Shown in pieces: positions 9,774-55,505 of a DNA stretch of 56,251 bases (positions are counted from its first letter, which is position 1; each line of letters opens with the position of its first letter). Source of the stretch: Verrucomicrobiota bacterium (GTDB taxonomy: Bacteria > Verrucomicrobiota > Verrucomicrobiia > Limisphaerales > UBA1100). Where the stretch lies: contig JAOLZA010000008.1 in NCBI GenBank assembly GCA_028343615.1, forward strand, positions 1-56,251. Direction: 5' to 3'. Under the pieces are notes generated by a model. That model searched no databases and was not told where the DNA came from. It was given only the letters and a program-made list of their open reading frames with translations. A program made the position numbers and the translations under genes.

Positions 9774-9791
9774 TGGCACGGGGCTTGCTGC
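9774..9791 (+). promoter_or_regulatory. Sigma-54 promoter of the flgB operon
   Basis: TGGCACGGGGCTTGCTGC is a textbook match to the -24/-12 consensus with GG-N10-GC. The start site would fall near 9800, while flgB starts at 9801, so the mRNA would have essentially no 5' leader. This promoter probably drives the long flgB-to-fliN operon. Confidence 0.92.
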
Positions 9792-33658: not shown

Positions 33659-33769
33659 ACGTCCACTATAAGTTTTGCAGGGGGTTTGCATACGGAAAGT
33701 GTACCTAGCTGCGCCCGTCCGTCCAGTTCTTATTTTGCTAAGGTGGGCTTGGGCGTGCTAGGTTGCCTC

Positions 33770-40800: not shown

Positions 40801-42208
40801 CTGGAGCGGCGTGTTCAGTTTTGCCGTGTTGTTCCTTTGCCTCCCGCAGGTTGTGCTTGATATGGGCGTAGTTCACTGTGGGAGGGTAAGTCCAGCCTCG
40901 TGAAGTTATTACACGTTTCTGATGTGGCTGCGCTTCAGCGCGTCCGTCGCGTCCTTTGGCGATTGCTGCGCGTATAGTGAGAAAACGCAGGAATTGAGAA
41001 CCGCAAATGGATTGGGCGAACTGTGTGCGTACCAATGCTCGTCCGCGTTGGGCAGCGTCTCGATATTTTTCCCAATTGCCTGTTATTTTTCTCAGACTAT
41101 CCATCAAGTCATCTCGTTCCGTGTGGTACACCACCACACCTTCATTCTCGCCGGCGAATAATCGCAACGCACTTTCTTCTTGCGTCAGCACCGCGCAACC
41201 CATTGCCAGCGACTCAATACCTCGCGAAGGCATGCTCCCCGGATGCCGCACATAGGTGAAGGATGCCTTCGCGCGGGTCATCTCGGCGTAATATTCTGCC
41301 GGTGCTAAAAATCCATCTATGTGCCGAATTTGAGCACAGTCTTCATCAATCCATTGTTGAAGCAACCGCGCCTTGTCCGGGTGATACGGACTGCGCATGG
41401 TGCCGGAGATGAACAAATCCACATCGCGTACACAGTTCTCTTCAAGGATGGGTAGGCATTTTAAATCGAGTCCGAAGAGTTTCGGAAAAGTGCAAACAGG
41501 TCCCGGTCGCAATGCGGACGCTTTGGCCCATTCCTCCGCGCCCACGGTGATGACCTCGTCAAACACCGGCAGCACCGGTGCGTTGTTTTGGATGTGTAAG
41601 TCCAGGTCCGAAGTGGTGCCGAACACGGGGAAGGGTAGCTCGTCCAAGTCGTTGGGCAGAAACTGCCACTCAATCATGTGGGCAAAATAAAAGTCTGGGT
41701 TGCCTTTGATAGAATCCATCGCCTTCAAAAAAGGTTTCACCGGACGGCAGTCCAAAATTATGTTCTCATTTTCATCGCGCCGAGTGCGATTTAGCCCTAT
41801 GCGTTGCAGTGTGAATTTGTCATCTGTGAAATCCCCGTCCTCCCAAACCGTTTGTGCTACTACCTCAATGCGTTCCTTGCTGATTAGCCGCAACAACTCC
41901 ACCGCTTCCGGCAAATCCAATTGTCGCAATACTGCTTTTGCCTCGTCCTCACGCTTGGCCATCCACAGCGCCGCCGCAAAATAAAATTTAGCCTCGGGTT
42001 CCGTCTCGTGTTGCAACACATCCAGGGCGAGATCCATCCGACCGACCAAACCTAACGCCGCGGCCTGCCGCCAATCGGCTACGCCCTGTTCGCCCGCCGC
42101 GCCACAGAAATTGCCCGCGCGGAACCAGTCCGCAGCAGGCCCAAGGTCAACGGGGGGCAGCGAGTAATGTCCCGCCTCCCGGGGGGGGGATGGCTTTGTA
42201 ACATCCAT
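34826..42208 (-). CDS. Giant 2460-residue protein with three glycosyltransferase modules and TPR arrays
   Basis: One uninterrupted frame encodes, in order: a CgeB/GT4-like module (about 110-420; 'ASFTYVRHPGSMPSRGIESLAMGCAVLTQE'); a TPR-like helical region; a second CgeB-like module (about 765-1135; KKILLVGFECGNWQNAKAWS, 'VESMAAGRPVISWNPPRARTHALFAPGQEIELFD'); a long TPR array (about 1170-1850); a GT2 module (about 1920-2100; LSVCMIVRDEEEFILKAIES, 'GDWVLILDADEILDPEG' with DAD); and a C-terminal TPR region. It probably elongates or attaches a glycan in the cytoplasm. The start is at a sigma-54 promoter with a leader of only about 4 bases. A C9 tract lies in codons 7-10. Confidence 0.88.
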   Translation of the reverse strand: MDVTKPSPPREAGHYSLPPVDLGPAADWFRAGNFCGAAGEQGVADWRQAAALGLVGRMDLALDVLQHETEPEAKFYFAAALWMAKREDEAKAVLRQLDLPEAVELLRLISKERIEVVAQTVWEDGDFTDDKFTLQRIGLNRTRRDENENIILDCRPVKPFLKAMDSIKGNPDFYFAHMIEWQFLPNDLDELPFPVFGTTSDLDLHIQNNAPVLPVFDEVITVGAEEWAKASALRPGPVCTFPKLFGLDLKCLPILEENCVRDVDLFISGTMRSPYHPDKARLLQQWIDEDCAQIRHIDGFLAPAEYYAEMTRAKASFTYVRHPGSMPSRGIESLAMGCAVLTQEESALRLFAGENEGVVVYHTERDDLMDSLRKITGNWEKYRDAAQRGRALVRTQFAQSICGSQFLRFLTIRAAIAKGRDGRAEAQPHQKRVITSRGWTYPPTVNYAHIKHNLREAKEQHGKTEHAAPAINAARELDLYLTEDMPDLVNRSERLDMVQAFERENELLHNVAREIYEDGWKQHPHSLVIRFNALRRAFHLGNPEGAKKALTITRELLTQPADHWQVYAEEDVMPWDYHSTCFDYRSYFDTLTKDLGKGVVKSKPLANLIRASLAHYLGQYTGEVEPLEQAVDWNPDFPYYRYALARALLHRREQGDVTRAVVLLDQLARRSIILEPAFLLLVKCHELLGEPVPGLDELESRYRRMQKGSVCSSYSSSEYDKVDLVKLPGQEALPLATDPFETEANEPVRVDSERAAHLVRPTGARPKKKILLVGFECGNWQNAKAWSYNGFYAFEEGLAANEVEFRTLPALAGVPSDHPASWLGQAKYMFLHEEFDQAWIWITHNDYDPEFLEWIKSKTDVRVGVIMESLEHTPEEEEQHSNLGGRRDKVKSHLQHCTHALTFDDRDAETLAEELNIPTMWCPPVVTWREVCDPVILPASGPAAFQGTIYNLERKALLESALGEGLLTQPPLPEIGSGFPRQFDVLQINSLNRVSLYDVVEPAWLDEYLVNLRRLRRRLNDLWMEGLQQSYVQVNLPSIFKCYAGRVVESMAAGRPVISWNPPRARTHALFAPGQEIELFDREDAHGLTQAILQLQENPEAARRMAEQARAKVLRYHTAEVRMRQVLDWLARGDEPDYGEVDFKPETNLNQSNELTTQDSTMNDTNDPAQGTLEEWLDKAEQCHEQNDVTGAIDALKQALKLSDRHPILLRALGAQQFAAGQFIDARINFSALVELCPEDVVAHLQLGLSAFHTDDRKTFEACLVTALDLEPENHEAMLLLGDYTFLTGDRVSAKKIYNRIAADGEVTPGLLHALAVCQYETGNSEQAKNTYRQLLEFDSEDQLARENLQVIDQANTTPTPAPEVAPEPIIEAEPKVKPAKPAPNTAVEQAEFFLDAGNPEAAIAELERAVLAEPKNPVLIEALGSQLFQLERFEEARLKFRKLIELQPRNAAAYTRLAMAAEATDRNDEFESALGLAMEIDPNNPEMLRYLGKLNLEQERFHDAGCAFTRLAELEPENPDNLLAMGVCLFRGGQTEIARETFERVLQLDPENAQALTNLVQMENEPTTETESKTNGSPYDALDAVESDVEGILIHAHQTLETGDVEGTRLMLEEGLVSHPDDLVLLNAIGNLFFREKRYAEAVGIYHRLTELNPDDPAPHSQAATSALFDSNVELFNEHVNRLLEIDPNHNTGLKLLATAKFHIGEFPEAAKLYARVLEANPEEVESTLALGMCFHKLKDNALAVSCFRRALEIDPYNATAASNLKALAEPNDEPQAEMKALASRETKSENGMVKAETIQKLQRETEPQANEDGLPAAALVGSLVGSQEFLKQGHHLKAWNAALECLARRPFHPEAWLHLTEIALDAGDEARALQCLDRLLALTPKWDVPNGVRDNLKQKPALTTTDIAWPEPPAASDTPRLSVCMIVRDEEEFILKAIESVKCLTNQVVVVDTGSTDRTVVLAESLGAEVHHFEWNDNFSDARNYSLEHATGDWVLILDADEILDPEGDEDLARDLYSENQLGFRIPLANFMRAEDRTLQQTGDGVTYVPRLFRNAPGLHFVGRVHEQIFSSIVVRQGHWGMDSGIGRTRLLHFGYDPSVKISRDKVKRNLRLLDKAVEEMPDEPALLMNYALDLFNDGRIDEAITQNRHAMEVLAQHEAEHVMPEVRERLVSMFCFHLLQAENYEELLEVAHSQLAKDCGPTASIHYVAALGLIKQGQHAEAIPELHACIEKSDEQTFTPRFRGVEAHGPYHLLADSLAETGETEGAEEAFRKALEISPDASNVRHGLGTFFVKNNRAEEAVQLLFEAIEKDLMTPTLWSLGCNIVNGHLDDTEIALHWTDCAVQDHPDHPEISKQRGIALLTAGQFKTALPVFEALPKHPANEAARLLCRFALGQPARLADADHEKAVSLAFVEWTRRLLERGHEESIQKLTENMEAISAVLPTAGKVLTEAALVS
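42181..42189 (-). repeat. C9 homopolymer (G9 on plus strand) at the start of the giant glycosyltransferase gene
   Basis: Nine consecutive C on the coding strand encode Ser-Pro-Pro-Arg (residues 7-10), about 20-30 bases after the start codon. In this sequence the frame is intact. Poly-G/C tracts of 8-11 in glycosyltransferase genes are classic slipped-strand phase-variation sites in Campylobacter and others. Confidence 0.85.
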
Positions 42209-42220
42209 GTTGCCAACACA

Positions 42221-42239
42221 GCAGCAACTTTCGGGCCAA
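42221..42239 (-). promoter_or_regulatory. Sigma-54 promoter of the giant glycosyltransferase gene
   Basis: The minus strand reads TTGGCCCGAAAGTTGCTGC, nearly identical to the Sel1-gene promoter (TTGGCCCGGTATTTGCTGC), with GG-N10-GC. Predicted start about 42212, only 4 bases before ATG 42208. Confidence 0.82.
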
Positions 42240-42342: not shown

Positions 42343-43410
42343 TAAGTGTAATGCGGCTTCAAGTGTGCTCGAAAAGTCTTCTTTTTGGATCGATTTTGGT
42401 GCTTTTGGGGTTTGAGGAATGACGCTTGGTGCCTCCGTTGGTTTTCCGATCAGATCAGCCAAATGTTTTTTGGCGATGAGATTATTTGGGAAGCGTCGGT
42501 TGAGTTCGGTGAATTCTCGAATCGAGTCTTCTTCGTTTCCGGTTTCCAATGCGCCTTGGGCGGTTGCCGTAAGTATTTGTTCCATTTCCGCTGCGGTAGG
42601 TTTCACGCAGGGTTGAGATTGCGGGCCACCGGCGGCTTGGATGTTCAATGCCACATTGCGGGCCTGATTTTGCACCATTGTGCGGTAAAAATCGCTGGCA
42701 ATAAAATCAAAGTTTGTGCGTCGGTCCGTGTCCCATCGGTCCGCTTCCCGCGTATCCACCTCATCATGTAGTACACGATATACCTGCGGTTGATCAAGGA
42801 ATCGCGTCCGATTGAGTCCATGATTCCGGTAGAGGTACCATTGGATAGCCAAAGTCCACACATCCGTAAACGATACATGGCCTAGACCACCGCAGATTTC
42901 CAGCAGTTTCCGGCTCCAGAAAGGGCCCTCATCGACTATTGCCAATTCATCTATGTGGTCGAGGTTGAAGTGTGGATAAAATGGCTGCTTTTGAAAGTGT
43001 GGTCGATAAAAGCACGGGTGCGGGCGCTGATGGATCATATAAATATCATCATCAAAATGGGTAGTTTCCGCGAGTACTGTGGTGTCCCAGTTAGGTTGGA
43101 TTACTACGAAATCATCTGCGAAGGCGCCCATCACCGTGCTACGGTCATCCGCAAGCATCATGGCTCGAGTGTAGCCGATATGGATATCGATGTATCCGCG
43201 GCCTCGCGGTTCAACGATGTGTTTTACGGCGAATGGATATTGTTCCAGTTGTGGAAGATAGGCGGGCACCTTTGGATCGCAGGTATCGAACTTCACCAGT
43301 ACCTCAAAATTATTATGGTCGGCGCTATAATCTACAAGGCTTTGAAGCAAGTTTGGCAAACCCCAGTTGGGATTGCTTTCGATGCGTGAGGTAATGAGTA
43401 GGCTGATCAT
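42340..43410 (-). CDS. GT2-like glycosyltransferase
   Basis: The 356-residue protein starts with a GT-A-type strand (MISLLITSRIESNPNWGLPN, LLQSLVDYSADHNNFEVLVKFD). It has an acidic 'MGAFADDFVVIQPNWD' segment that could serve as the DXD metal site, and ends with a short helical region after about residue 280. It lacks membrane segments, so it acts in the cytoplasm. Its start overlaps the stop of the sulfotransferase-like gene by 4 bases, making it the last gene of the 12-gene operon. Donor and acceptor are unknown. Confidence 0.75.
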   Translation of the reverse strand: MISLLITSRIESNPNWGLPNLLQSLVDYSADHNNFEVLVKFDTCDPKVPAYLPQLEQYPFAVKHIVEPRGRGYIDIHIGYTRAMMLADDRSTVMGAFADDFVVIQPNWDTTVLAETTHFDDDIYMIHQRPHPCFYRPHFQKQPFYPHFNLDHIDELAIVDEGPFWSRKLLEICGGLGHVSFTDVWTLAIQWYLYRNHGLNRTRFLDQPQVYRVLHDEVDTREADRWDTDRRTNFDFIASDFYRTMVQNQARNVALNIQAAGGPQSQPCVKPTAAEMEQILTATAQGALETGNEEDSIREFTELNRRFPNNLIAKKHLADLIGKPTEAPSVIPQTPKAPKSIQKEDFSSTLEAALHL

Positions 43411-44219
43411 GATTGTGCAGTGTTTGAGTTGCGTTTGCCCAGTAGATTGCCCAGTTTTTCCCGTGCGGAAAGCCGGTCAGCGGATTTGTAACGAGCGTGA
43501 GAGCGTGCCCATTCGCCATTGGATTCATAATCCCATTGGCGCATTACGCCACCTAATTCCTTGTGGAATTTCAGCGCCACATCGCCATCAAACTGATTGG
43601 CCCAGTCGCCGGAAATACCCTTGCGGAACATGTACTGCGTGCGCACGGTTTCTCCCGTTTGGCCACGCCGGCGTCGGGTGACTTTCTCAAAACTGTGCCG
43701 CGCACACGATTCTTGCAGCGCGGCATCGGTGGCTGGCACTTCGGAAAAATCCAAAATTCGCCGTAATCCGGTGGGGATATTTCGCTTCAATTCCTCAAAC
43801 GTGAGGTTCATCACATTGGTTTGATCAAGTGCCCGCCAAGAATTTGCATCGTCAAATAAATCAAGAAAATTAGATTCTTTATCCACATATTCGAGATACA
43901 ATTCGATCTCTGTTTTATCCTTATCACACAACCCTCGATGAATGGCGTCTTTAACGTGCGACACCAGCACATCACGTGGGTCACGGGTGAGGCAAATAAA
44001 CCGAAAATCATCCCGCGTCACGAAATCGCCAAAGACCTCAGGGCCACTGTGTGTCCAGTGGAATGCACGTTTGCCTGCGCCGATATCTGCCGCCAACTTT
44101 TCTAGTTCGGAAGGGCCGGAGAAAAATTCGCAGCCCGCAGCTTTCGCAAATTCTTCCAATACCGGCATCACAATGGACGCCCCAGCGTTTGGTAGGTTGT
44201 AAAAAACAACGTGTTTCAT
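43407..44219 (-). CDS. Sulfotransferase-fold protein, candidate phosphoramidate or sulfate transferase
   Basis: I start it at 44219 (MKHVVFYNLPNAGASIVMPV; 270 residues); an upstream ATG at 44372 lies inside the methyltransferase gene. The fold signature is clear: 5'-phosphate loop LPNAGAS (about residues 9-15) and the 3'-phosphate motif CLTRDPRDVLVS (about 75-86). The usual PKSGT loop has Asn in place of Lys. The protein is a close paralogue of the C-terminal half of the kinase-fusion protein in the same operon ('QYMFRKGISGDWANQFDG' versus 'QFLYRKGISGDWANHFDG'). It could transfer a group from a 3'-phosphonucleotide to a sugar. Which group is unknown. Confidence 0.78.
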   Translation of the reverse strand: MKHVVFYNLPNAGASIVMPVLEEFAKAAGCEFFSGPSELEKLAADIGAGKRAFHWTHSGPEVFGDFVTRDDFRFICLTRDPRDVLVSHVKDAIHRGLCDKDKTEIELYLEYVDKESNFLDLFDDANSWRALDQTNVMNLTFEELKRNIPTGLRRILDFSEVPATDAALQESCARHSFEKVTRRRRGQTGETVRTQYMFRKGISGDWANQFDGDVALKFHKELGGVMRQWDYESNGEWARSHARYKSADRLSAREKLGNLLGKRNSNTAQS

Positions 44220-44224
44220 ATAGA

Positions 44225-44971
44225 TCAATCTTTCAATTGTGCGGCCCACAGGCGCGTGGTGTAGCCCACTCCCAGCACTTTGCCGTGTGCCGCGGTGATC
44301 GCTTCGATGCCGCCGATGATGCCCGCGAAAGCTTCGCCCGCCTGGCGTTGTAGCGTACCGTGCGAGCGCCACGCTTCCACGTATGCCTCCGCCGGAACGC
44401 GTGCCACATACGAGGCTTCGATGAAAATCGGCTCTTCAAAAAGGTTGCTTTCGCGGATAACTTTCGTTTGGTCTTCGCGTCGCGTGCCGTAGCCGTAGCC
44501 GTCAATGCGGCTTTTGATGTAATCCTCCACCTCGGACTGCAGCGAGTGATTTAAATCACGGTGGTTCCACAAACAGGCGAACCAACCATTCGACCGCAGG
44601 ATCCGTTTCGTTTCGCGCAGGGCTTCCGGTCTGTCGGTGGTGTTAAACGAAGAGCCAAAGGTGACGGCATCAAAGGCGTTTTCCGGTTGACCGGTGGATT
44701 CGCCGGTGCCCACGTTCCATTGCACGGGTTTGTTGGCGGTGACGCGCATCCCCACTGCGCGCATTGCATCGTTGGGTTCCACAGCGACGACATTGCAGCC
44801 GCGGGCGACAAGCAGCTTAGTGAGATGCGCGGAGCCCGCACCCACGTCGCACACGGCAGCATCTTGTCGCAGCTCTGCGAGGTCACAAAAACGCACCACC
44901 GCTTCCACGGCATAGTCCGGCCGATTCAAATAATGCGGCGCAAGTTCAGTATAGTCCCATTCTGTTTTCAT
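44225..44971 (-). CDS. Class I SAM-dependent methyltransferase
   Basis: The 248-residue protein has the methyltransferase-11 layout: motif I 'AAVCDVGAGSAHLTKLLVARG' (about 38-58), acidic residue of motif II 'VVAVEPND', and 'AFDAVTFGSSFNTTD' and 'RILRSNGWFACLWNH' in the later strands. It lies one base after the kinase/sulfotransferase fusion gene. In C. jejuni, methyltransferase genes (Cj1419/Cj1420) adjoin the phosphoramidate genes and are thought to supply its O-methyl group, so a similar role is plausible but unproven. Confidence 0.85.
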   Translation of the reverse strand: MKTEWDYTELAPHYLNRPDYAVEAVVRFCDLAELRQDAAVCDVGAGSAHLTKLLVARGCNVVAVEPNDAMRAVGMRVTANKPVQWNVGTGESTGQPENAFDAVTFGSSFNTTDRPEALRETKRILRSNGWFACLWNHRDLNHSLQSEVEDYIKSRIDGYGYGTRREDQTKVIRESNLFEEPIFIEASYVARVPAEAYVEAWRSHGTLQRQAGEAFAGIIGGIEAITAAHGKVLGVGYTTRLWAAQLKD

Positions 44972-44972
44972 A

Positions 44973-46418
44973 TTAGTTTAAATCAATTCTGGGTTTGGAT
45001 TGGAAAAGGTTTTTAATTTGTTGATCTGGGTTAAAGCGCGACGGTGCGGTGAGTCCGTTGATGCGCGCGGTCATTTGTTCAAGTTGCAACATACTGGCGA
45101 ACAGAGCGCCATCGAACTGTGAACTGGGGCGTTCCTCGCGGCAACGCTGCACGTGGGCCTCGGCCCATTGGCCGGTGGGCTCGTGGCCCCAGGCGCGGAG
45201 GTATCGACCGAAGCGGCGTTGAAATAGCCGCGCGGTTTGGCCGTCGAAATGATTGGCCCAATCTCCGGAGATGCCTTTGCGGTACAGGAATTGGCCGCGA
45301 AGGGTGTGCCCGTTTTCCCCGCGCGCCCGCCCGGTGATTTGCTCGAAACTGTGTTTTTGGCAAAGCGTATTTTGGGCCGTGGGACTGGCGGGGATACCGG
45401 TGAATTCCAATAGTTGACGCACAGTGGTTGGGACATCCTTTTTCATTGCCTCAAAATCCAACTGAAAAACATTGGGCTGCTCCAGCGCGCGCCAGGTGTG
45501 GGCTTGCTCGAACCACTGATTGAAGCCAGACCGAATGGCTTCCTGGAAAAGTTGGTGCTCGGGTTTTCCTTCGTGCAGTTCCGCTCGGATGATGTCTTTT
45601 ATGTAAGAAACTAACACATCGCGCGGATCACGGATGAGGCAAATAAATCGGACATCCTCGCGTTCGAGTTCGGCGGCGAATGTTTCCAGCGGATGATGGG
45701 TCCAGTGGAAAACGGGGTCACCCGATTCCAGCAGCGAATGGAAACGATGCGTTTCGGCGGGGCTGGCGAGGTTGGCGTAGCCGTGGGCTTCGGCGAGGGT
45801 TTCGAGAATGGGTATCAGCGCGGAGGCACCGGAGTTGGGGAGGTTGTAAAATACCACGTGCGGCCGTTGCGAAAGCGAATGCAGGCCGAGGGCGGAACGC
45901 AGGAGTTCATTTGCCAATTCGGTTGCCGACCGCAGTGGTGGGTTATTGTTCAGCACTAAATCGGGTTGGGCGGGGCGATCGTATTCGAGGTCGAAGCCGG
46001 CCACGTTTTTGACCTCTCCGCGGGCGGCTCGGCTATAAAGGCCGCAGGCGTCGCGTTGGCATAACTCAGCCCAGTCGACATTCACCCAAGTTTCAAAATA
46101 ATTCGGCAAATGCGCACGGTTCCATTCGTGGATTTCGTGAAAGAGCGACATCGTGGGCACGATGACAGTTTGCCCTTGATTGGCGAGCAACTGTGCTAGG
46201 CGGCTGATGCGGTACGCATTGGCAAGGCGACTGGTGACGTCGTGGCCGGTTTTGGAATCAGCTATGGCGGCGCGCACGGCATCGCCATCGAGCACCACGG
46301 GGATCTCGCCATTCGCACGCAGTATCTCGGCGGTCGCATTGGCAATGGTGCTTTTGCCGGAGCCGGAAAGTCCGGTGATCCAAAGCACGCGGCCTTCTTT
46401 GTTTGCGTTTTCGGTCAT
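44973..46418 (-). CDS. APS-kinase-like kinase fused to a sulfotransferase-fold domain
   Basis: The 481-residue protein has two domains. Residues 1-175 are CysC/APS-kinase-like: P-loop GLSGSGKST (16-24), DGDAVR, and 'RDACGLYSRAARGEVKNVAGFDLEYDRP'. Residues about 187-450 are a sulfotransferase fold: LPNSGAS loop with Asn for the usual Lys, 3'-phosphate motif CLIRDPRDVLVS (about 255-266). The kinase family includes Cj1415 of C. jejuni, which phosphorylates the 3'-OH of CDP-phosphoramidate. The neighbouring three genes match Cj1416-Cj1418. I infer that one polypeptide makes the 3'-phosphonucleotide donor and uses it. Ordinary PAPS synthesis and sulfation is the alternative. Confidence 0.85.
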   Translation of the reverse strand: MTENANKEGRVLWITGLSGSGKSTIANATAEILRANGEIPVVLDGDAVRAAIADSKTGHDVTSRLANAYRISRLAQLLANQGQTVIVPTMSLFHEIHEWNRAHLPNYFETWVNVDWAELCQRDACGLYSRAARGEVKNVAGFDLEYDRPAQPDLVLNNNPPLRSATELANELLRSALGLHSLSQRPHVVFYNLPNSGASALIPILETLAEAHGYANLASPAETHRFHSLLESGDPVFHWTHHPLETFAAELEREDVRFICLIRDPRDVLVSYIKDIIRAELHEGKPEHQLFQEAIRSGFNQWFEQAHTWRALEQPNVFQLDFEAMKKDVPTTVRQLLEFTGIPASPTAQNTLCQKHSFEQITGRARGENGHTLRGQFLYRKGISGDWANHFDGQTARLFQRRFGRYLRAWGHEPTGQWAEAHVQRCREERPSSQFDGALFASMLQLEQMTARINGLTAPSRFNPDQQIKNLFQSKPRIDLN

Positions 46419-47194
46419 GCGGTTACAGCAGTCTCAGCGGCATCCCAGCGCCAATCATGTTCCCAATTGGGCCGCTCGAGTCGTTCTTCGTACAGGCGCA
46501 GGTCAGTTTCGCTATCCACTTCGCACCATCGACCTTGAGTAGGGGTGGTGTTGATTTTCGCGCCGGCTTCGAGCAATAGCTGGAGCAGTGATGTCATATC
46601 CAGCCGGTCACGTCGCGCCTTGGGCAGGTCTTCGAGGATCACCTCGATGCGGCGCCAACCGGCTGGAGAAATTTTGAGTAGGCCCATATATTGACCTTCG
46701 ATATCGGTGACTTCAGCCGCGCGATCTCCGATGGATTGCAGCGCGCCATTGTCGGTTAGGCGGAAGGTTTCGGCATCTACCAGCGGATCGGAAAAGCGTT
46801 TGCGCCAAAGCGGCAACCATTCCTCATCATAACTGATGACCAATTCGCCGGGGTTAAAAATAAGTTGTTCAAGAATGGCTGGGTGATAAACGATGTCGGA
46901 ATAAGACACGATACAGTCATCGCGCTGGAGCCATTGGCTGGCGCAGGCTAGGGTGCTAACCATGTTGGTGCGCGCCCATTCTGGGTTTTCAAACCAAATG
47001 CAATCGGTGGGGTTAAGCGATTCGGCGAGGTAACCGCGCACGATGGCTATGTCGCGAATGCCGGCGGCGCGCAGTGCTCCCAGTTGCCATTCGAGCAATG
47101 TGCGTCCGGCAAAGGGTGTGAGGCATTTCGGGTGATCTTCGGTGAGCCCCCCCATTCGGGAGCCGCGACCGGCTGCTAAAATGATTGCGCGCAT
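46415..47194 (-). CDS. Nucleotidyltransferase, Cj1416-like (CTP:phosphoglutamine cytidylyltransferase candidate)
   Basis: The 259-residue protein has the sugar-nucleotidyltransferase fold: signature MRAIILAAGRGSRMGGLTED with 'HPKCLTPFAGRTLLEWQL', the 'CIVSYSDIVYHPAIL' metal-binding strand and 'WCEVDSETDLRLYEER' near the end. The LicC-like subgroup uses CTP. In C. jejuni Cj1416 (similar length) makes L-gamma-glutamyl-CDP-amidate from CTP and amide-phosphorylated glutamine. Here it sits between the amidotransferase (3-base gap) and the APS-kinase-like gene (4-base overlap), the same order as Cj1417-Cj1416-Cj1415. Confidence 0.8.
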   Translation of the reverse strand: MRAIILAAGRGSRMGGLTEDHPKCLTPFAGRTLLEWQLGALRAAGIRDIAIVRGYLAESLNPTDCIWFENPEWARTNMVSTLACASQWLQRDDCIVSYSDIVYHPAILEQLIFNPGELVISYDEEWLPLWRKRFSDPLVDAETFRLTDNGALQSIGDRAAEVTDIEGQYMGLLKISPAGWRRIEVILEDLPKARRDRLDMTSLLQLLLEAGAKINTTPTQGRWCEVDSETDLRLYEERLERPNWEHDWRWDAAETAVTA

Positions 47195-47197
47195 TTT

Positions 47198-47842
47198 TTA
47201 TTCCTTCCAACCTAAAGTGGTACACAGCAGGTTTCGGTCCAGTTGCGACTGCAAGTTATCCCCATCACGTTCGGGATGCCATTGCACGGCGGCGATGGGC
47301 GCGGCACGGTGGCGCACCGCCTCCACGCAGCCATCATCGCTAGCGGCCAGCAGTTCAAGCGATGGAGCCAGTGTGTTCGCCGGCACGGCCCAGTTGTGAA
47401 ATGAATTAACCGTGGTGAGCCCGGGCGCATCGAATTCCAGTAGATCTGTTCGCAAATGCACGGTATGTTTTTGGGCCAAATGTGTTTTGGGCTCGCATCG
47501 CCGCAGTGCGCCTCCTCCGCGTTGTTGCAGCATTTGCATCCCGCGGCACACGCCGAAAATCGGCAGCGCGTTGCACACGGCGTGGTCGATCACAGTATTC
47601 TCAGTTTTGTCGCGAATGGGGCAACTGCCGAGGTCATTACCGCCGGACAAAATAAATCCATCGAGCTGCCAATACTGGATGAAATCCACCACCGCCGCGC
47701 CGAGGTTCGGGATGGGCATCCACGCCACATCCGGTGCGAGCGCGGCCATATAGCGCGCCCAATCCTGAGCCAAGCAATCGCGCGGTTCACCAGAACCGGC
47801 GGCTTGTCCCACTCTCATTGTAATGCCAATACGTTCAGCCAT
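47198..47842 (-). CDS. Class I glutamine amidotransferase-type hydrolase, Cj1417-like
   Basis: I start it at 47842 (MAERIGITMRVGQ), overlapping the upstream stop by 8 bases; 214 residues. It has the peptidase C26/GATase fold: FILSGGNDLG oxyanion segment, nucleophile Cys99 in FGVCRGMQM, and the His189/Glu191 pair in AVQWHPERD. In C. jejuni Cj1417 hydrolyses gamma-glutamyl-CDP-amidate to CDP-phosphoramidate and glutamate. No synthase partner domain is fused or adjacent, which fits a stand-alone hydrolase. Confidence 0.82.
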   Translation of the reverse strand: MAERIGITMRVGQAAGSGEPRDCLAQDWARYMAALAPDVAWMPIPNLGAAVVDFIQYWQLDGFILSGGNDLGSCPIRDKTENTVIDHAVCNALPIFGVCRGMQMLQQRGGGALRRCEPKTHLAQKHTVHLRTDLLEFDAPGLTTVNSFHNWAVPANTLAPSLELLAASDDGCVEAVRHRAAPIAAVQWHPERDGDNLQSQLDRNLLCTTLGWKE

Positions 47843-50324
47843 AAATTGGTCGGAGTAATTTTGCCGCACCATCGAGCTCCACTCGGTTGGCGGCGGCAAT
47901 ACGTTCAAAAGTTTGTTCGCCCACACCAATAGCTGCGGGCAGGCCGAGCTCGGCACAGCGAATGGTCATATGGCTGTTGGCACCGCCGAACTTGCTGACG
48001 AGCCCGGCGATGTTGCGCGTGAAAATCCAGTCGAATCCAGGGTCGGCATTTTCGATGCAAATGATGCGCCCGCTCAGTTGGCCGTGGCCGCGGGATTGAT
48101 TGCCCAGCCGTAGTGGCTCACCTTCCACGTGGCGGTTGCCGACAAAGTTGGGCGCGCTACGGTGCAGCGGCACTACATAGAAATCACCTGGATCTCGGAT
48201 GAGATAACCGAGGCGAATGCCATCCACGTTTTCCTGTTCGCGTCGGCGCTGTTCGACGAGATCCTCAAAGTGCAGCTCGGGATCGTTGAGTACCGGGCTG
48301 ACGAGGTGATTGAGCAAATCCTGCACCGTGAGATGCGAGAGAGCGTCGCGGTCCAGCCGCGTGTCGCTGCCCCAATGCGCGATCAGCTCAAGAGCATCGG
48401 AGAGATGTCGCGTGAAAATAAATTTGGCGCGTTCGCGCTCGGTAATGGCTTTCCGAGCGTACTCGATGAATTGCCCAGGCTCCACTTCCGGCATTCCCGC
48501 CCCGACAAAAAGTTCCTGAAATAATTGCGCCTCTGCTCCCGTGAGCGGGAAAACCGCATCGCTCGTCGCCGGCTCAGGCTGAGCGGTGGCGGCGAACAAA
48601 TCATCGCGTTGATCGTAACGCGGCGAAGTGATGTCATACGTGCCTGGGCGCAAATGACCGTACTTGGCCAGAAATTCCGGGCGCCGTCGCGGTTCCGTGA
48701 GGGCTTGAGTAAAGTCGCCGGTGAAATCCGCCGTAACCGTGCGGAGCGTGCGCTTGAAGGCCGCCAGCCGTTGCTCCGAAAGCGCGCCGCGTGTGACGGC
48801 CGAACGCAAAATCGCTTCCGCCATAAATGCGTGTCGTGCAATCACCGAAAAAGGTTGAGTGCCCAGCGTGCGGCATTCTTCCAGCAGCGTTGGCAGCAGC
48901 GCCAAATCGTTGAGTGAGCGTCGCTGGGTTTGCAACGCCTCGAGTTGCTGGATGTTTTTCAGTGCCCTCGGCAACGAAGCTTCGGGCGTAAGATTAAGAT
49001 TGGCTGCGGTAATTTTCGCGAGTTGAATTCGGTAATCAAGAAACTCATCCGGCTCGAGCACATCGCCGTAGCGGCTTTGGAAATCTTCGTCGAAATTAAA
49101 ATCTAACACCGTCTGCGCCACTTCAAATTCCACTTTGTCATGCAGCTTGGGATTGGTCTCCAGCCGATCCATCCAGGCATCAACCAGTCGCTCACGTGTT
49201 TCGGTGGGCAAGCCGACGGGTAGGAAGGAATTGAAACTCGCACGCACATCGATGTACGGCTGTCCGCCAAGCGTGAGCATCAGCGGCGTACTAGGCACCG
49301 GTTGGTAGCCCATCTCCGCGCGGGCTTCCTGCCAAATAGAATCGGTGATGAGATGCCGGTACAGAGAAATCGCTAGCGGCCGCGGGCGCGTGCCGATGAT
49401 TTCAGCGGGGTTCCAATCCGGCATCTGCCCGAGAATGGTGCGCGCACCAGCCAAGTTTTTGCGCGGTTGGGAGTGGCGCGTGAAGAATTCGCCCGCCTGA
49501 AATAATACCTCGCTTACGTGACGGCTGATGCGGCGGTTCCAGTTTTCCTGCACCGTGATGCGCCGCACTTGCAGTAAATGCAATTGGCCATCGCGAGTTT
49601 TTGCAAATTCAATATCCAACGGTGTGCCGCGATCGCACAAGCCTTCGAGCTCGCGCGCCAGCTCCAGTAACTCCGCCACGCGCGGCGAATCGACGTGGTC
49701 GGTGACATAATCGCGATGCACCAAAACCGTTTTATTGACCACGCTGCCGCCGGTAATGGTATCGGTCTTGCCGGTTTCATCATCGTAATTCAGCACATAA
49801 TAGGGCGCGCCGCTGTCCAGCTCGTGTGTCATAATTACGCCACTCAAAGTCACATCCGTCACCATCGTCATCACCAGGACTTGGTTTTCCGGACACTCAT
49901 CCATCGACTCGATGACCTCTTCCACCGCGCTCCACACCGCGCGCGGCTGACTGCTGTCCACGTCCAGACACGAGGCAAATGCTCCTGCTTGTGATTGCTG
50001 CTCACCGTCCTCATTTACCGCGCTGCTGCGGAACACCACTTGCCCGCCGTCAAATCGCGCGGCAATTTCCTGAGTGATTTCCACTGGTAACGCTGACCAC
50101 TCCGCCACGGTAAAACTAATGAGCTTCGGTACCACCGCCTTTTTCACCAACGGCTGCAATGCCGTGAGTGTGTCTGATTTCGTACCAAAACTTCCCAACA
50201 CCGTTGGAGTCAACGAGGCCACAGTCACAGGCGATGCAAAGGGCGCGGACACCGCGAAATCCTCAAGCAAATCTGCGCTTGAGGACTCGGTCTCCGTGCG
50301 GAGGTCTTGGCAGGCGATTGTCAT
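47835..50324 (-). CDS. PEP-synthase-like kinase, candidate L-glutamine kinase (Cj1418-like)
   Basis: The 829-residue protein has a PPDK/PEP-synthase ATP-binding domain (about 55-260; VVFRSSAVNEDGEQQSQAGA, 'PLDIEFAKTRDGQLHLLQVRRITV'), a middle helical domain and a C-terminal swivelling phosphohistidine domain (about 745-829; 'GLVSKFGGANSHMTIRCAELGLPAAIGVG' with the catalytic His). The chain ends right after the His domain and lacks the C-terminal TIM barrel that binds PEP in true PEP synthases. This truncated layout and length are those of Cj1418 (about 770 residues), which phosphorylates the amide nitrogen of glutamine, the first step of phosphoramidate synthesis. Pathway assignment comes mainly from the four-gene context. 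Confidence 0.82.
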   Translation of the reverse strand: MTIACQDLRTETESSSADLLEDFAVSAPFASPVTVASLTPTVLGSFGTKSDTLTALQPLVKKAVVPKLISFTVAEWSALPVEITQEIAARFDGGQVVFRSSAVNEDGEQQSQAGAFASCLDVDSSQPRAVWSAVEEVIESMDECPENQVLVMTMVTDVTLSGVIMTHELDSGAPYYVLNYDDETGKTDTITGGSVVNKTVLVHRDYVTDHVDSPRVAELLELARELEGLCDRGTPLDIEFAKTRDGQLHLLQVRRITVQENWNRRISRHVSEVLFQAGEFFTRHSQPRKNLAGARTILGQMPDWNPAEIIGTRPRPLAISLYRHLITDSIWQEARAEMGYQPVPSTPLMLTLGGQPYIDVRASFNSFLPVGLPTETRERLVDAWMDRLETNPKLHDKVEFEVAQTVLDFNFDEDFQSRYGDVLEPDEFLDYRIQLAKITAANLNLTPEASLPRALKNIQQLEALQTQRRSLNDLALLPTLLEECRTLGTQPFSVIARHAFMAEAILRSAVTRGALSEQRLAAFKRTLRTVTADFTGDFTQALTEPRRRPEFLAKYGHLRPGTYDITSPRYDQRDDLFAATAQPEPATSDAVFPLTGAEAQLFQELFVGAGMPEVEPGQFIEYARKAITERERAKFIFTRHLSDALELIAHWGSDTRLDRDALSHLTVQDLLNHLVSPVLNDPELHFEDLVEQRRREQENVDGIRLGYLIRDPGDFYVVPLHRSAPNFVGNRHVEGEPLRLGNQSRGHGQLSGRIICIENADPGFDWIFTRNIAGLVSKFGGANSHMTIRCAELGLPAAIGVGEQTFERIAAANRVELDGAAKLLRPIYG

Positions 50325-50331
50325 AGAAGAA

Positions 50332-51891
50332 TCATGCGAGGCAGGTTTCCGGTGCTTCAGTTTCCAGCAATTGACGGGGCAGGGGGACTTTGGCCATGTC
50401 CTCCACGTTCAAGCGCTGGGCACCCCCGAATTTTCTCTCAACTAAATTGAGATAATCGGGGTTGGTGAAATAAGTCTGCCACGCATCATCGCGAAAGCGT
50501 ACCACCTCGGCGGCACTCAAGTGCTTCGTGGGCAGCGGTTGGCTTTCGTACGACAAAAATGCGTAGCCTTCATAATTAGTTGGCAGCGGCCAGTCGTTTT
50601 GTTTGGCTTCGTGATACAACGGGCTGCCGGGCAGGGCTTGGCATGGGTACATATTGGCCATCTCGGTGTTCAGCTCCAACGCGAGGTCGAGCGTTTGTTG
50701 CATCGTCTCGTGGGTATCATCCGGGAAACCATAAATGTAATTGGAAATGATGTTTATATCCGCCTCGCTGATTTCGCGCGCCACTTCGCGGATGTTGATG
50801 TCCTTAAACGACCCCTTGGATACTTCGCGCCGTACTGCTTGGTTGCCGGCTTCGACGCCGAGCGCCAGCCAGCCGATGCCCGAACGCTTAAAAAGATCGA
50901 GATACTTCGGGCGTACTGTATCGATACGCGAGTACGCCCACATCCGGAGCTGCAATTCGCGGTCGATGATGTTATTGAGCAATGGCTCGAAGTACCGTTT
51001 GTCTAGGAAAAACATTTCATCAGAAATACGCAACGTCTCTACACCGAGATTGGCGAGTGTCTCGAATTCTTTCGTGATGAAGTCCGGCGACCAATAACGC
51101 ATTTTGCGTGAGTCCGACGAGTTGATGCTATCGCCGTTGTCCTCGCGGTTCACGATATTGATCATACAGAAATTGCAGGCAAATCGGCAGCCGAGCGAAG
51201 TGTAAATCGCCGCAAACGGCGTACGCTTGGTGTGATCAAACTCCGCGTGCCAAAAATGCGCGCGATATAAATCTAGGGGCTGCTTGTCGTATGGCAGCAA
51301 ATCCCACGCGTACCCCGGCAGATCGATATCCATCCGTTCCTGCGGTACCACGCGCTCCGGCGCATTCAGCCATGGCCGTCCGTGCAGCTTGTGGCCGACG
51401 CCCTTTACCTTCGCGACCTCGTCATCGAGATTGGACCGCAACAAATTTTGCACCGCATAAACACCTTCATTGAGCAGCACAAAATCAATGCTGTTTTCCG
51501 CCAACACTTCCAACGGCAGCGCGCTCGTGTGCGAACCGACGATGGCGATTTTGTATTCCGGATAAGTCGCTTTCAAACCACGCGCCAACGCGATGGCACC
51601 GATCATATTTGTGGTGCCGGAATTCGGGTTCTGCCCGTAAACCGTCAGGCAAACCAAACGCGGATTGGCTTCGTCGATGCGCTGAACCGATTGCTCGAGT
51701 GTCAAGCGCTCTGCGCCCGTGTCCAAAATCGCCGCTTCAAACCCGTTGCTCCGACAGGCCTGCGCGAGCAGCAACGCCCACGTGGGCGTCTCAATGGCCG
51801 AATATTTTTTGGCCAATTCCTGATACGCCTTTGCCGATGAATCGGGCGAGACGAACAGCACGTCAAGTTGTTTGTTCAAAGATTTAATCAT
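50332..51891 (-). CDS. B12-binding-type radical SAM protein
   Basis: The 519-residue protein has an N-terminal cobalamin-binding-like Rossmann region (about 8-165) and a radical SAM core with C-X3-C-X2-C as CRFACNFC (about residues 228-235), then 'RISDEMFFLDKRYFEPLL' and 'GIGWLALGVEAGNQAVRREVSKG', typical of the B12-binding subfamily. A roughly 150-residue C-terminal extension follows. These enzymes often methylate unactivated carbon or phosphorus, or rearrange substrates. In this operon it might alkylate the sugar or the phosphoramidate group, but substrate is not visible. It sits 13 bases after the dehydratase gene. Confidence 0.85.
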   Translation of the reverse strand: MIKSLNKQLDVLFVSPDSSAKAYQELAKKYSAIETPTWALLLAQACRSNGFEAAILDTGAERLTLEQSVQRIDEANPRLVCLTVYGQNPNSGTTNMIGAIALARGLKATYPEYKIAIVGSHTSALPLEVLAENSIDFVLLNEGVYAVQNLLRSNLDDEVAKVKGVGHKLHGRPWLNAPERVVPQERMDIDLPGYAWDLLPYDKQPLDLYRAHFWHAEFDHTKRTPFAAIYTSLGCRFACNFCMINIVNREDNGDSINSSDSRKMRYWSPDFITKEFETLANLGVETLRISDEMFFLDKRYFEPLLNNIIDRELQLRMWAYSRIDTVRPKYLDLFKRSGIGWLALGVEAGNQAVRREVSKGSFKDINIREVAREISEADINIISNYIYGFPDDTHETMQQTLDLALELNTEMANMYPCQALPGSPLYHEAKQNDWPLPTNYEGYAFLSYESQPLPTKHLSAAEVVRFRDDAWQTYFTNPDYLNLVERKFGGAQRLNVEDMAKVPLPRQLLETEAPETCLA

Positions 51892-51904: not shown

Positions 51905-53110
51905 TTAAAGTGTGTTCAACAACTCAGTCAAAAGCGTAATGCGCTCGGGCTCGAGGTCGGGATAATTTCCGATGTACCAGCCGTAAAAATGCACGTGGTT
52001 GGTGAAGGGATAATTTTTGTAGTCATCGCCAAACCGCTCGCGGGCATAAGGTTGCCGCAGTTGATTGCCGCCACCGGCGGTACCGCGGCGAAATTCCACT
52101 TTCCATTCGCGCAACGTGCTTTCCACGCGATCGCGCAGGGCATCGTCCGGACTGCGCAAAATCAATGTGAACGCGTAATTACTGCTTCCTTCCACGGCGA
52201 AATCGGTTTGGAATTTCGAGGAGTCCAGGCCGTTTAAGAAGCGCTTCAAGTTACGCGTGCGAATGGCATTGTTGTCGTCCAAACGCTTCAGTTGATGGCG
52301 TCCAATCACTGCGTTAAGTTCAGTGCCGCGCACGTTGTAAGCGGGATAAGCAAAAATAAATTCCGGATTCAAATCCTGATGCTTGGATTGGTAACGTTCC
52401 TTCGTTGATTGCTCCGAAGCCTCGCGCACCATTCCGTGGGAACGGTAAATGCGGATGGCTTCGTAAAGTTCATCGTCATTTGTACAAACCATTCCACCCT
52501 CCACCGTGCTAAGGTGGTGCGCGTAATAAAACGAAAAGTTAGAAGCCCAACCCATGCTGCCCACGCGCCGGTCATTGAAAGTCGCGCCGTGCGCCTCACA
52601 GCAATCTTCGATCAATGGGATGTTGCGTTTATCAAGTTCGTCGAGCAGGCGTTGATCGAGCCCGTTGTAGCCCAACACGTGCGTCAGAAAAACAGCCTGT
52701 GTTTTGTCGTTCACTTTATCGAGCACTTGAGAAATATCCATGCCGAGCGTGCGCGGATCGATATCCACAAACACCGGTTTCAAACCCGCGTGCAACACCG
52801 AGGCGATGTCGCTCACCCACGTTAGTGTTGGCACGATCACTTCACCTTCACCTTTGAGCTGTCGTAGCGCGGCCATTGTCACGAGGTTTGCTGCTGATCC
52901 AGAATGCACGAACACACTGTGCTTCACGCCCAACCACTCGCTCCATTCGCGTTCGAACTCGCGTACGTTGGTCGACTGCGTGAGGATCGGGTCGTCCTGC
53001 TGCAAAAATTCCACGAGGCAGTCCAAATCCGCCCGCGTGATGTTGTTACGCATCAACGGCCACGGGCCGAGGGCAGTTTTGGGGACAGCAGTGGCAGCAC
53101 TATTTTTCAT
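51905..53110 (-). CDS. DegT-family PLP enzyme with His in place of Lys, ColD-like sugar 3-dehydratase
   Basis: The 401-residue protein has the DegT/DnrJ/EryC1 fold ('GEVIVPTLTWVSDIASVLHAGLKPVFVDID', 'LIEDCCEAHGA'). At the position of the PLP-binding Lys, the sequence is FSFYYAHHLSTVEGGMV with His at about 198. This Lys-to-His change marks ColD (GDP-4-keto-6-deoxymannose 3-dehydratase) and relatives, which remove the C3 hydroxyl instead of transaminating. I infer a 4-keto-sugar nucleotide 3-dehydratase. Its start overlaps the end of the E1-beta-like gene by 11 bases, suggesting coupled action. Confidence 0.85.
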   Translation of the reverse strand: MKNSAATAVPKTALGPWPLMRNNITRADLDCLVEFLQQDDPILTQSTNVREFEREWSEWLGVKHSVFVHSGSAANLVTMAALRQLKGEGEVIVPTLTWVSDIASVLHAGLKPVFVDIDPRTLGMDISQVLDKVNDKTQAVFLTHVLGYNGLDQRLLDELDKRNIPLIEDCCEAHGATFNDRRVGSMGWASNFSFYYAHHLSTVEGGMVCTNDDELYEAIRIYRSHGMVREASEQSTKERYQSKHQDLNPEFIFAYPAYNVRGTELNAVIGRHQLKRLDDNNAIRTRNLKRFLNGLDSSKFQTDFAVEGSSNYAFTLILRSPDDALRDRVESTLREWKVEFRRGTAGGGNQLRQPYARERFGDDYKNYPFTNHVHFYGWYIGNYPDLEPERITLLTELLNTL

Positions 53111-53645
53111 TATAAAAGTCTCCGTATTCTACGAGAATCGTGCTCTTTCCATCCTTCCGCGTGCGGGCTTTTTCGTAGGCGGGGTAAACTTCCTCTGCTT
53201 CTTCGAGCCGGATAACCTCTACGTTTTCCAGCATTTTACGGTAGGCATCGGTGTAATCGCCGATGTGCTGATGGCCCGGATGCAGCGGTCGTTGCGAGCC
53301 GATGCTGGTACGGATGATGGCTTTGGGTTGGTAGCCGCCAGCGGACATATCTCCAAATTTATCGAGGTGATTGACCAGTTGATTGGTGGCGAGCAGCAGA
53401 AAATTCCAGCGTGGAAAAATGCTGACCGGCAGCTTGCCCTGCAACGCGAGGCCATTGGTCATTCCCATTTGCATGTCCTCATCCACGGGCAGCTCTACTT
53501 TGCGGTCGTTGGAAATTTCCTTGAGTGTGTTGCTCATCGCTGTGCCGGGGCAGGCAACGGCTTGGCCGATGAAAACCGTGGCCGGATCTTCGGCGAGGTA
53601 TTCCATCGAGCGTTTTAGCTCATCAAAATATTTCAACAGTTTCAT
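53100..53645 (-). CDS. Short E1-beta/transketolase-Pyr-like subunit
   Basis: The 181-residue protein corresponds to the pyrimidine-binding domain of E1-beta/transketolase ('PVDEDMQMGMTNGLALQGKLPVSIFPRWNFLLLATNQLVNHLDKFG', 'KAIIRTSIGSQRPLHPGHQHIGDY'). It ends after that domain; E1-beta proteins normally have a further C-terminal domain and about 325 residues. With the next gene upstream it would form a split thiamine-diphosphate enzyme. Position next to the ColD-like gene suggests action on a sugar nucleotide. Confidence 0.78.
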   Translation of the reverse strand: MKLLKYFDELKRSMEYLAEDPATVFIGQAVACPGTAMSNTLKEISNDRKVELPVDEDMQMGMTNGLALQGKLPVSIFPRWNFLLLATNQLVNHLDKFGDMSAGGYQPKAIIRTSIGSQRPLHPGHQHIGDYTDAYRKMLENVEVIRLEEAEEVYPAYEKARTRKDGKSTILVEYGDFYNEK

Positions 53646-53656
53646 AGCGTCCGTGC

Positions 53657-54325
53657 TTAAAATTGTACTCGCTGGCCAGCACCGGCGTGAGGGTATTTGG
53701 TTTCATATTGGTAATAGGTGACGTACGGGTTATCGGCGTTTTCATAAGTGAGCGTATCCACGCCCCAAGTTTCGCGGGTGTCGGTGCAAACGCTTTTGCC
53801 GTTGTCTTCAATTACAAAGTGCACCGGCAGCTCATGGTTTTGTACATACTTGATGCACTCATGAGCTGTGCCGGTTTCGGAAGTCATATCGCCAAGGAAA
53901 CACCACACGCGTTCCTTGCCGCCCTCGCGCTGGATGCCGAGGCCGAGTCCGACGGCGATCGGGAGCACTCCGGTTACGATGGCGGAACTGAGCACGCGGT
54001 GCTCAGGAAAGTTAAGTGTGATGGAGTGACCGGCCATAATTTCGGACTTCACTTCATCCGACGGCACGCCTTTGAGGAGGCATTGGTAATGACTGCGCCA
54101 CGAGCACAGCACCCAGTCATCTGCGCGCACGCGATCGAACACATCGATCATCTCGCGTTCGTTGCCGGAATAAAGATGTACTGGAGCTTTGATTTTTGAG
54201 GCATTGAATTCGTCGGCGATGTCGTTCTCGAAAGCAATCAACTCCTCGGGTGTCCAACGCGGTAAACCGCCCGCGGTTAAACTCGGCGCGGCGGTTTCGG
54301 GTTCGCAAATAAATGGGGGTCTCAT
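53657..54325 (-). CDS. Short E1-alpha-like thiamine-diphosphate subunit
   Basis: The 222-residue protein is E1-alpha-like: 'LLKGVPSDEVKSEIMAGHSIT', 'VLSSAIVTGVLPIAVGLGLG' and the thiamine-diphosphate motif GDMTSETGTAHECIKYVQNHE ending in EDN (GD...DN replacing GDG...NN). It is shorter than 2-oxoacid dehydrogenase E1-alpha (about 320-360). No lipoyl E2 or E3 gene is near, so a dehydrogenase complex is unlikely. A carboligase moving a two- or three-carbon unit onto a keto-sugar is my inference. Confidence 0.78.
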   Translation of the reverse strand: MRPPFICEPETAAPSLTAGGLPRWTPEELIAFENDIADEFNASKIKAPVHLYSGNEREMIDVFDRVRADDWVLCSWRSHYQCLLKGVPSDEVKSEIMAGHSITLNFPEHRVLSSAIVTGVLPIAVGLGLGIQREGGKERVWCFLGDMTSETGTAHECIKYVQNHELPVHFVIEDNGKSVCTDTRETWGVDTLTYENADNPYVTYYQYETKYPHAGAGQRVQF

Positions 54326-54328
54326 AAT

Positions 54329-55420
54329 TTAGGCAAAATTAGCGAGCGCTTCGGCGGTGGCCTCCACGTCGTCGAGTTCACGGAATTCGGCCAATTGTCG
54401 CGATTTGTTGTCAGCTTCGGCGGCTGAATAGTCCTGGTCGCGGTCGTAAAAAATCACCTGACTTCCGGCTGTCTCGAAGTTAAACGGCACATGGATGAGG
54501 CGATTGAGTTTTTCACGAACGGCTGGTTGAAACTGAGGCGGTACGAAGAGCAACATAAAGCCGCCTCCGCCTGCGCCGGTAATTTTACCGCCCACCGCAC
54601 CCGAATCGCGCGCGGCGTTATAGAGTTCACTGATGGCGTCGTTGGAGATTTTGTCGCTGATAGCCTGTTTAGCGAGCCAGCTTTCGTGCAGTAGCTCGCC
54701 GTATTCTTTAATGGGCCCGTGACCGCAGAGAACGGCGAGGGCTTCCTCCACCATATCGCGCAGGATGCGAAGCTGGCGGCGTTTGCTTTCAAGTGAGGGC
54801 ACATAACTGCCGGCCACCTTGTCGGCGGTGCGTTTGATGCCCGTGTAAAAAAGCATAAGATGCGACGTAAGTTCATTCAGCCGATCAGGCGGAATAATGA
54901 CAGGTCGCACCGAAATTTCTCCCGAGGTGTGGAAGGTAATGTGGTTGAACCCGCCGTACGCCGCGTTGACTTGATCCTGCGAGCCGACGGTTTCTTTCAA
55001 TAAATCCTGTTCCAAATGAATGCTCTCATTGGCGAGTTGTTCCTTTGTCGCCATATGGCCCTTAAGGGCGTAGAGGGCATTGAGCAAACCGACCGTGAAG
55101 GCGGAGCTGCTACCCATGCCGCTCCGGGCGGGGAGATCGCCGTCGTGGTGAATCTCAATCCCGCGATCGAGATTCATAAATTTCAGCGTGGCTCGCACCG
55201 AGGGATGCTGTATTTCTTCAATAGTATTTGTACTCTCGATTTGCGAATACACCACGCGAAATTGATGGTCGAAAAACGGTGGCAAATGGCGCGCGTTAAT
55301 GTAGCAGTACTTGTCTATGGTGGTCGACAGGACCGCGCCGCCGTGTTCGCGATACCAGCCCGGATAGTCCGTGCCGCCGCCAAACATCGAGATGCGATAG
55401 GGGGTGCGAGTAATAATCAT
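54329..55420 (-). CDS. hddA: GHMP kinase, D-glycero-D-manno-heptose 7-phosphate kinase-like
   Basis: The 363-residue protein has GHMP-kinase motifs: N-terminal 'MIITRTPYRISMFGGGTDYPGWY', the ATP loop LPARSGMGSSSAFTVGLLNA (about 96-115) and C-terminal 'GGKITGAGGGGFMLLFV'. The 'RISMFGGGTDYP' start is typical of HddA, which phosphorylates heptose 7-phosphate at C1 toward GDP-heptose; C. jejuni has the same gene (Cj1425) in its capsule locus. It is the first gene of the 12-gene operon, with an AAGGG-like site before ATG and a consensus sigma-54 promoter 68 bases upstream. Related kinases for fucose exist, so substrate is provisional. Confidence 0.8.
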   Translation of the reverse strand: MIITRTPYRISMFGGGTDYPGWYREHGGAVLSTTIDKYCYINARHLPPFFDHQFRVVYSQIESTNTIEEIQHPSVRATLKFMNLDRGIEIHHDGDLPARSGMGSSSAFTVGLLNALYALKGHMATKEQLANESIHLEQDLLKETVGSQDQVNAAYGGFNHITFHTSGEISVRPVIIPPDRLNELTSHLMLFYTGIKRTADKVAGSYVPSLESKRRQLRILRDMVEEALAVLCGHGPIKEYGELLHESWLAKQAISDKISNDAISELYNAARDSGAVGGKITGAGGGGFMLLFVPPQFQPAVREKLNRLIHVPFNFETAGSQVIFYDRDQDYSAAEADNKSRQLAEFRELDDVEATAEALANFA

Positions 55421-55487: not shown

Positions 55488-55505
55488 GCAGCAAGTGTCG
55501 TGCCA
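55488..55505 (-). promoter_or_regulatory. Sigma-54 promoter of the 12-gene glycan/phosphoramidate operon
   Basis: On the minus strand TGGCACGACACTTGCTGC is a full consensus match with GG-N10-GC. Predicted start is near 55479, about 59 bases before the hddA ATG. Since the following twelve genes have gaps of at most 13 bases or overlap, this one promoter may drive them all. Confidence 0.92.

Follow-up and report, generated by a model that had tools for sequence, protein, structure and literature searches.

A probable methyl phosphoramidate-type activation operon beside flagellar genes in a Verrucomicrobiota genome, with a kinase–sulfotransferase fusion

Phosphorus–nitrogen bonds are rarely met in biology; the phosphoramidate pathway is known from Campylobacter. 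The O-methyl phosphoramidate (MeOPN) pathway of Campylobacter jejuni includes the transferases Cj1421 and Cj1422 and the methyltransferase-like proteins Cj1419 and Cj1420. Its activation enzymes Cj1415–Cj1418 convert glutamine, ATP and CTP to CDP-phosphoramidate 3'-phosphate, and C. jejuni makes GDP-heptose beside the MeOPN genes (PMC11800397). In a 2014 paper the genes were found in several species of Campylobacter, and phosphoramidate lacking the methyl group was cited for lipopolysaccharides from Xanthomonas campestris and Shewanella (PMC3907429); a 2022 review terms the glutamine kinase 'C. jejuni-specific' (PMC9561416). We analyzed a 56,251-nucleotide stretch of DNA (the window; contig JAOLZA010000008.1, assembly GCA_028343615.1) from a 59% complete metagenome-assembled genome (MAG) of a Verrucomicrobiota bacterium. 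This stretch probably carries a complete MeOPN-type phosphoramidate-activation operon, whose product most likely modifies a flagellar glycan that contains heptose.

The window shares with the C. jejuni system four enzyme families in the same order (C. jejuni numbering), the hydrolase and the cytidylyltransferase as putative members, together with a methyltransferase and nearby heptose-activation genes of the HddA and HddC types. All four genes of the cassette core are present on the minus strand at 44973-50324. However, the set lies in Verrucomicrobiota, in a flagellar rather than a capsular setting and behind a sigma-54-type promoter. It also differs from C. jejuni in having a 3'-kinase–sulfotransferase fusion and a second sulfotransferase, and its operon adds E1-like, DegT and B12 radical S-adenosylmethionine (SAM) genes.

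The 829-residue protein encoded by the first core gene matched family model NF004508, assumed here to include Cj1418 itself, with 894 bits over its whole length (cut-off 501), compared to 50 bits for the best phosphoenolpyruvate (PEP) synthase model and at most about 26 bits for the rifampicin phosphotransferase NCBIfam models. The protein combines a PPDK_N (ATP-grasp) domain with a PEP-utilizers (phosphohistidine) domain, and a Pfam domain search gave no match to a PEP barrel. A catalytic-histidine motif, GGANSHM, was identified at residues 780-786. The GGxNSH form of this motif is present in 93 of 94 glutamine-kinase family members, taken from 94 inspected loci that comprise the 80 best of a genome scan, plasmids and relatives and are thus not a random sample, whereas E. 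coli PpsA has GGRTCH in its place. A kinase tree was built that also contained E. coli PpsA and six phosphohistidine-domain proteins of the window genome and its relatives, but no rifampicin phosphotransferases. In this tree, the window protein and 89 relatives formed one group (support 0.863) with the PEP synthases outside it (support 1.0). By model score, motif and tree, the predicted enzyme belongs to the glutamine-kinase pathway and not to the PEP synthases.

The next two core genes were tentatively assigned through their families and motifs. The predicted hydrolase is a class I GATase/peptidase C26 protein with a cysteine in GVCRGMQ and a histidine and glutamate in WHPER. Its best model, the curated gamma-glutamyl-CDP-amidate hydrolase NF045546, scored 101 bits (cut-off 250), and the next model scored 64. 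The most likely start of this gene is the ATG at 47842, overlapping the stop codon of the kinase gene. The putative cytidylyltransferase has a MobA/LicC-like fold with the conserved AAGxGxR..PKC motif and is 38-58% identical to its counterparts in other cassettes; no specific model matched it above cut-off. The methyltransferase is up to 57% identical to its counterparts.

The fourth activity is predicted for the N-terminal, APS-kinase-like domain of the fusion protein (APS, adenosine 5'-phosphosulfate), which matched NF004041 with 170 bits (cut-off 127). An alignment and tree of 83 cassette kinases and nine genuine APS kinases were used for comparison. At two clamp positions, which we take to be F75 and F165 of the adenine clamp in P. 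chrysogenum APS kinase, the window domain has H and V and thus retains neither phenylalanine. At the first position, H or Y occurs in 78 of the 83 cassette kinases compared to F in 9/9 true APS kinases; at the second, V, M or I occurs in 79/83 compared to F or L in 9/9. The true APS kinases form their own group (support 0.986), outside which the window domain falls. Its residues and its place in the tree thus mark it as a predicted CDP-phosphoramidate 3'-kinase-like domain, set apart from the APS kinases of sulfate activation.

The operon runs on the minus strand from 55420 to 42340, with all genes open and nearly abutting (gaps of -35 to +13 bp). Gene order is maintained in five genomes of the same genus, some of them broken off where a contig stops and two carrying an insertion, and chance is ruled out as an explanation of the arrangement. 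An exact sigma-54 site lies about 70 bp 5' of the first operon gene, where base counts give a chance expectation of about 0.01 such matches per stretch of this length, and a site occurs at the equivalent position in three congeners (L029, L030 and L033). A second exact site (9774-9789, plus strand) is located just ahead of the flagellar genes, and the gene for a 2460-residue protein has its own sigma-54-like site at 42223-42238 with one mismatch. Genes for FliP, FlhB, FlhA and an FlhF-like protein occupy 23.7-30.2 kb. Because the sigma-54 site and the heptose-activation genes occur with adjacent flagellar export genes, the modification is likely aimed at a flagellar glycan. In six Pseudomonas-type loci (L067, L068, L069, L073, L078 and L088), the cassette stands directly behind genes for FlgK and a flagellin-domain (flgL-like) protein, that is, in a flagellar glycosylation region.

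The original prediction for this DNA, made from the letters of the sequence, was confirmed as an observation and partly supported in its interpretation. Its core pathway was right: the four families as a glutamine-kinase/CDP-phosphoramidate set are borne out by family models, trees and linkage, and the kinase without a PEP barrel, the methyltransferase as a member of the set and a sigma-54-like operon near flagellar genes all held. A grouping of the kinase with PEP synthases, which the prediction had named as its refutation, did not appear in the tree. The APS-kinase-like domain is present as described, but its gene turned out to be a fusion with a sulfotransferase and the second sulfotransferase had been overlooked, leaving the account of the transferase incomplete. 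Likewise, the listed genes are in place, but the operon is wider, extending upstream to genes from the heptose kinase to the radical SAM protein.

Coordinates of the operon and of neighboring features in the window
Feature	Position	Strand	Basis
HddC-like gene, next upstream of the HddA-like gene	55601-56239		identity from L030 copy
Sigma-54 (-24/-12) promoter-like site TGGCACGACACTTGCT	55490..55505	-	exact TGGCACG-N4-TTGCW match
HddA-like GHMP kinase (D-glycero-D-manno-heptose 7-phosphate kinase type)	54329..55420	-	NF049969 136 bits, below cut-off 600
E1-alpha-like thiamine pyrophosphate (TPP) protein	53657..54325	-	PF00676
E1-beta/transketolase-pyrimidine-domain-like protein	53100..53645	-	PF02779
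DegT/DnrJ aminotransferase (RfbH/PseC-like)	51905..53110	-	PF01041 2e-69
B12-binding radical SAM protein	50332..51891	-	PF04055 + PF02310; top NCBIfam models below cut-off
Predicted glutamine kinase, Cj1418 type	47835..50324	-	NF004508, tree, motif
Gamma-glutamyl-CDP-amidate hydrolase-like class I amidotransferase (Cj1417 type)	47198..47842	-	NF045546 best model
LicC-like (phosphoglutamine) cytidylyltransferase (Cj1416 type)	46415..47194	-	PF12804
Fusion: CDP-phosphoramidate 3'-kinase-like domain (1-~175, Cj1415 type) and sulfotransferase-fold domain (~186-410), a proposed phosphoramidoyl transferase	44973..46418	-	PF01583 + PF00685
SAM methyltransferase of cassette, proposed P-O-methyltransferase	44225..44971	-	PF08241
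Second, stand-alone sulfotransferase-fold protein, proposed phosphoramidoyl transferase	43407..44219	-	PF00685 9e-22
Final gene of operon, 356 aa	42340..43410	-	GT-A-like by eye only
2460-aa tetratricopeptide repeat (TPR) + glycosyltransferase protein, candidate flagellar glycosyltransferase	34826..42208	-	TPR, PF13524, PF00535

In order to place the cassette among other bacteria, GTDB species were scanned for glutamine-kinase loci. At least 551 loci were found in many phyla, with carriers including Pseudomonas, Aeromonas, Azospirillum, Prochlorococcus, Nitrospina, Lachnospiraceae and Acidobacteria MAGs. The rarity outside Campylobacter implied by the original prediction was therefore overstated; occurrence there is true but not special, being the rule in genome data, and the loci usually hold the whole cassette. 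Neither the 80 top matches of the scan nor viral contigs searched by primer sequence included a Campylobacter sequence. The kinase was accompanied by the hydrolase in 90, the cytidylyltransferase in 89, the 3'-kinase in 83 and the methyltransferase in 73 of the 94 inspected loci, several of the missing members being due to contig ends. The most common order, found in 43 of 69 complete sets, was 3'-kinase, methyltransferase, glutamine kinase, hydrolase and cytidylyltransferase. Within its own phylum the cassette is sporadic (3/289 genomes). Since hundreds of species have this coherent set of five genes, in flagellar islands as well, a class of surface modification is predicted that has so far been overlooked.

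A similar locus from plasmid AZO_p6 of Azospirillum lipoferum 4B (L024) contains 3'-kinase-like, methyltransferase, glutamine kinase, hydrolase and sulfotransferase genes. Its cytidylyltransferase, HddA-like kinase and radical SAM protein are 50%, 59% and 40% identical to those of the window, and a DegT gene lies nearby. However, the 3'-kinase domain follows other N-terminal domains there (846 aa) and is not fused to a sulfotransferase. A relative of the glutamine kinase (34% identity) is also encoded in a 9.5-kb unannotated 'Bacteriophage sp.' record from human faeces (L117, MT837632.1), which is probably a bacterial contig.

On the basis of these assignments, the 829-residue kinase would phosphorylate the amide of L-glutamine using ATP, the LicC-like enzyme would couple the phosphoglutamine to CTP, and the amidotransferase-like hydrolase would remove glutamate to leave CDP-phosphoramidate. 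The APS-kinase-like domain would then phosphorylate its 3'-OH, and the methyltransferase would add an O-methyl group. Finally, the group would pass from its 3'-phosphorylated CDP donor to a sugar through the sulfotransferase-fold domains, of which one is joined to the 3'-kinase. Family membership and the published C. jejuni biochemistry are the basis on which the first four steps are proposed; the methyl step, the transfer step and the flagellar target are what we infer from the locus.

The transfer step was examined through the sulfotransferase domains. The C-terminal ~230 residues of the fusion form a sulfotransferase domain (PF00685, 4e-26), to which the stand-alone protein is ~45% identical. 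Both contain the 3'-phosphate-binding motifs RDPRDxxxS and RKGxxGDW, retained in the fused domain as RDPRDVLVS and RKGISGDW. We infer that these domains may transfer (methyl)phosphoramidate from 3'-phospho-CDP-phosphoramidate, a look-alike of 3'-phosphoadenosine 5'-phosphosulfate (PAPS), and the fusion would be Rosetta-stone evidence for such mimicry. The fused and the second sulfotransferase are the best candidates for this step. Among the direct neighbors of the cassettes (n=104), Sulfotransfer_3 was the most common Pfam family (12), followed by Sulfotransfer_1 (8) and Glyphos_transf (8), compared to at most 4 each among distal genes of those loci (n=104). These counts are based on Pfam, as a simple motif pattern for sulfotransferases gave zero matches. 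AlphaFold2 models made from too few sequences had pLDDT values of 41.6 for the fusion and 48.8 for a Pseudomonas neighbor family, and an hhalign comparison of the fusion profile with the L045 sulfotransferase was uninformative. No open paper linking a sulfotransferase with MeOPN was found, subscription literature being outside the search.

Whether sulfotransferase-fold proteins make up a phosphoramidoyl transferase class for which 3'-phospho-CDP-(methyl)phosphoramidate serves as a mimic of PAPS, with phosphoramidate decoration being widespread, appears to us evenly balanced. If true, PAPS mimicry would explain why the pathway uses an APS-kinase-like enzyme for 3'-OH phosphorylation, with the fusion giving a rationale for this puzzling step, and flagellar and surface glycans decorated with phosphoramidate would be widespread among bacteria.

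Several points weigh against the proposed operon function and transfer step. The likeness to Cj1415–Cj1418 is drawn from family models, with the hydrolase below the cut-off of its own model and the cytidylyltransferase lacking a specific one, and the sugar acceptor is putative and the enzyme activities are predicted. The window sulfotransferases have NLPNSGAS and NLPNAGAS, with asparagine replacing the lysine of the canonical 5'-phosphosulfate loop (PKSGTT type); this agrees with the use of another donor without proving it. Finally, TagF-like proteins (PF04464) recur beside many cassettes, inside the operon in two congeners (L030 and L031), and are competing transferase candidates, since TagF acts on CDP-linked phospho groups. 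It is thus possible, if doubtful, that the transfer is performed by another enzyme, such as a TagF-like CDP-dependent phosphotransferase, the 356-residue protein or part of the 2460-residue protein, with the sulfotransferases doing something else. However, no TagF-like protein was found in the operon of the window, and the kinase that makes the donor carries the sulfotransferase on the same polypeptide, an arrangement conserved across the genus. In L030 (4273-6842) and L031, the insertion encodes a TagF-like protein as well as another methyltransferase, and the fused sulfotransferase domain is more diverged (~65% identity).

A further explanation is that the fusion is an ordinary PAPS sulfation module placed in the operon by chance, the phosphoramidate 3'-kinase and transferase being absent or unrelated. 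Such modules (CysC and a sulfotransferase) have homologous kinase and sulfotransferase folds and the same logic of a 3'-phosphonucleotide donor, and the retained RDPRDxxxS and RKGxxGDW motifs agree with sulfation. A CysN-type ATP sulfurylase was found in the genus, including five congeners (G001-G005, 92-95% complete), so that APS can be made. However, the window kinase lacks the adenine-clamp phenylalanines and groups with cassette kinases, its operon has no ATP sulfurylase, and the same kinase family without the sulfotransferase fusion accompanies the glutamine kinase in most inspected loci, making this explanation unlikely. No canonical PAPS route is visible in the five congeners, as the fused kinase is their sole APS-kinase-type domain. 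The MAG of the window has a separate ATP-sulfurylase/APS-kinase pair on contig C64 (34521-37183). This APS kinase is divergent, and none of the other 19 relatives searched has an ATP sulfurylase of that type; the pair may represent a recent acquisition or contamination.

That the cassette instead makes a small diffusible phosphoramidate molecule seems improbable. A plasmid of Agrobacterium vitis (L026, 9911-15000) carries the kinase, hydrolase and cytidylyltransferase beside a CDP-alcohol phosphatidyltransferase, LysE exporters and a TauD dioxygenase, in what looks like a small-molecule cluster, indicating reuse of the pathway for other products. The window cassette, however, lies in a sigma-54 operon with sugar-nucleotide genes, near flagellar genes and a glycosyltransferase. 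A PEP-synthase- or rifampicin-phosphotransferase-like role for the 829-residue protein in an operon unrelated to phosphoramidate is hardly credible, as the shared ATP-grasp and phosphohistidine domains are outweighed by the score of 894 bits with NF004508, where no PEP synthase or Rph model exceeds about 50, the separate tree group and the constant linkage to hydrolase, cytidylyltransferase and 3'-kinase.

Pfam and NCBIfam searches gave no match for the 356-residue protein. The split E1-alpha/E1-beta-like TPP proteins and the DegT aminotransferase (51905-54325) share the operon with the HddA-like kinase. A DUF4836 protein of 608 residues is encoded at 31865-33691, between the flagellar genes and the glycosyltransferase.

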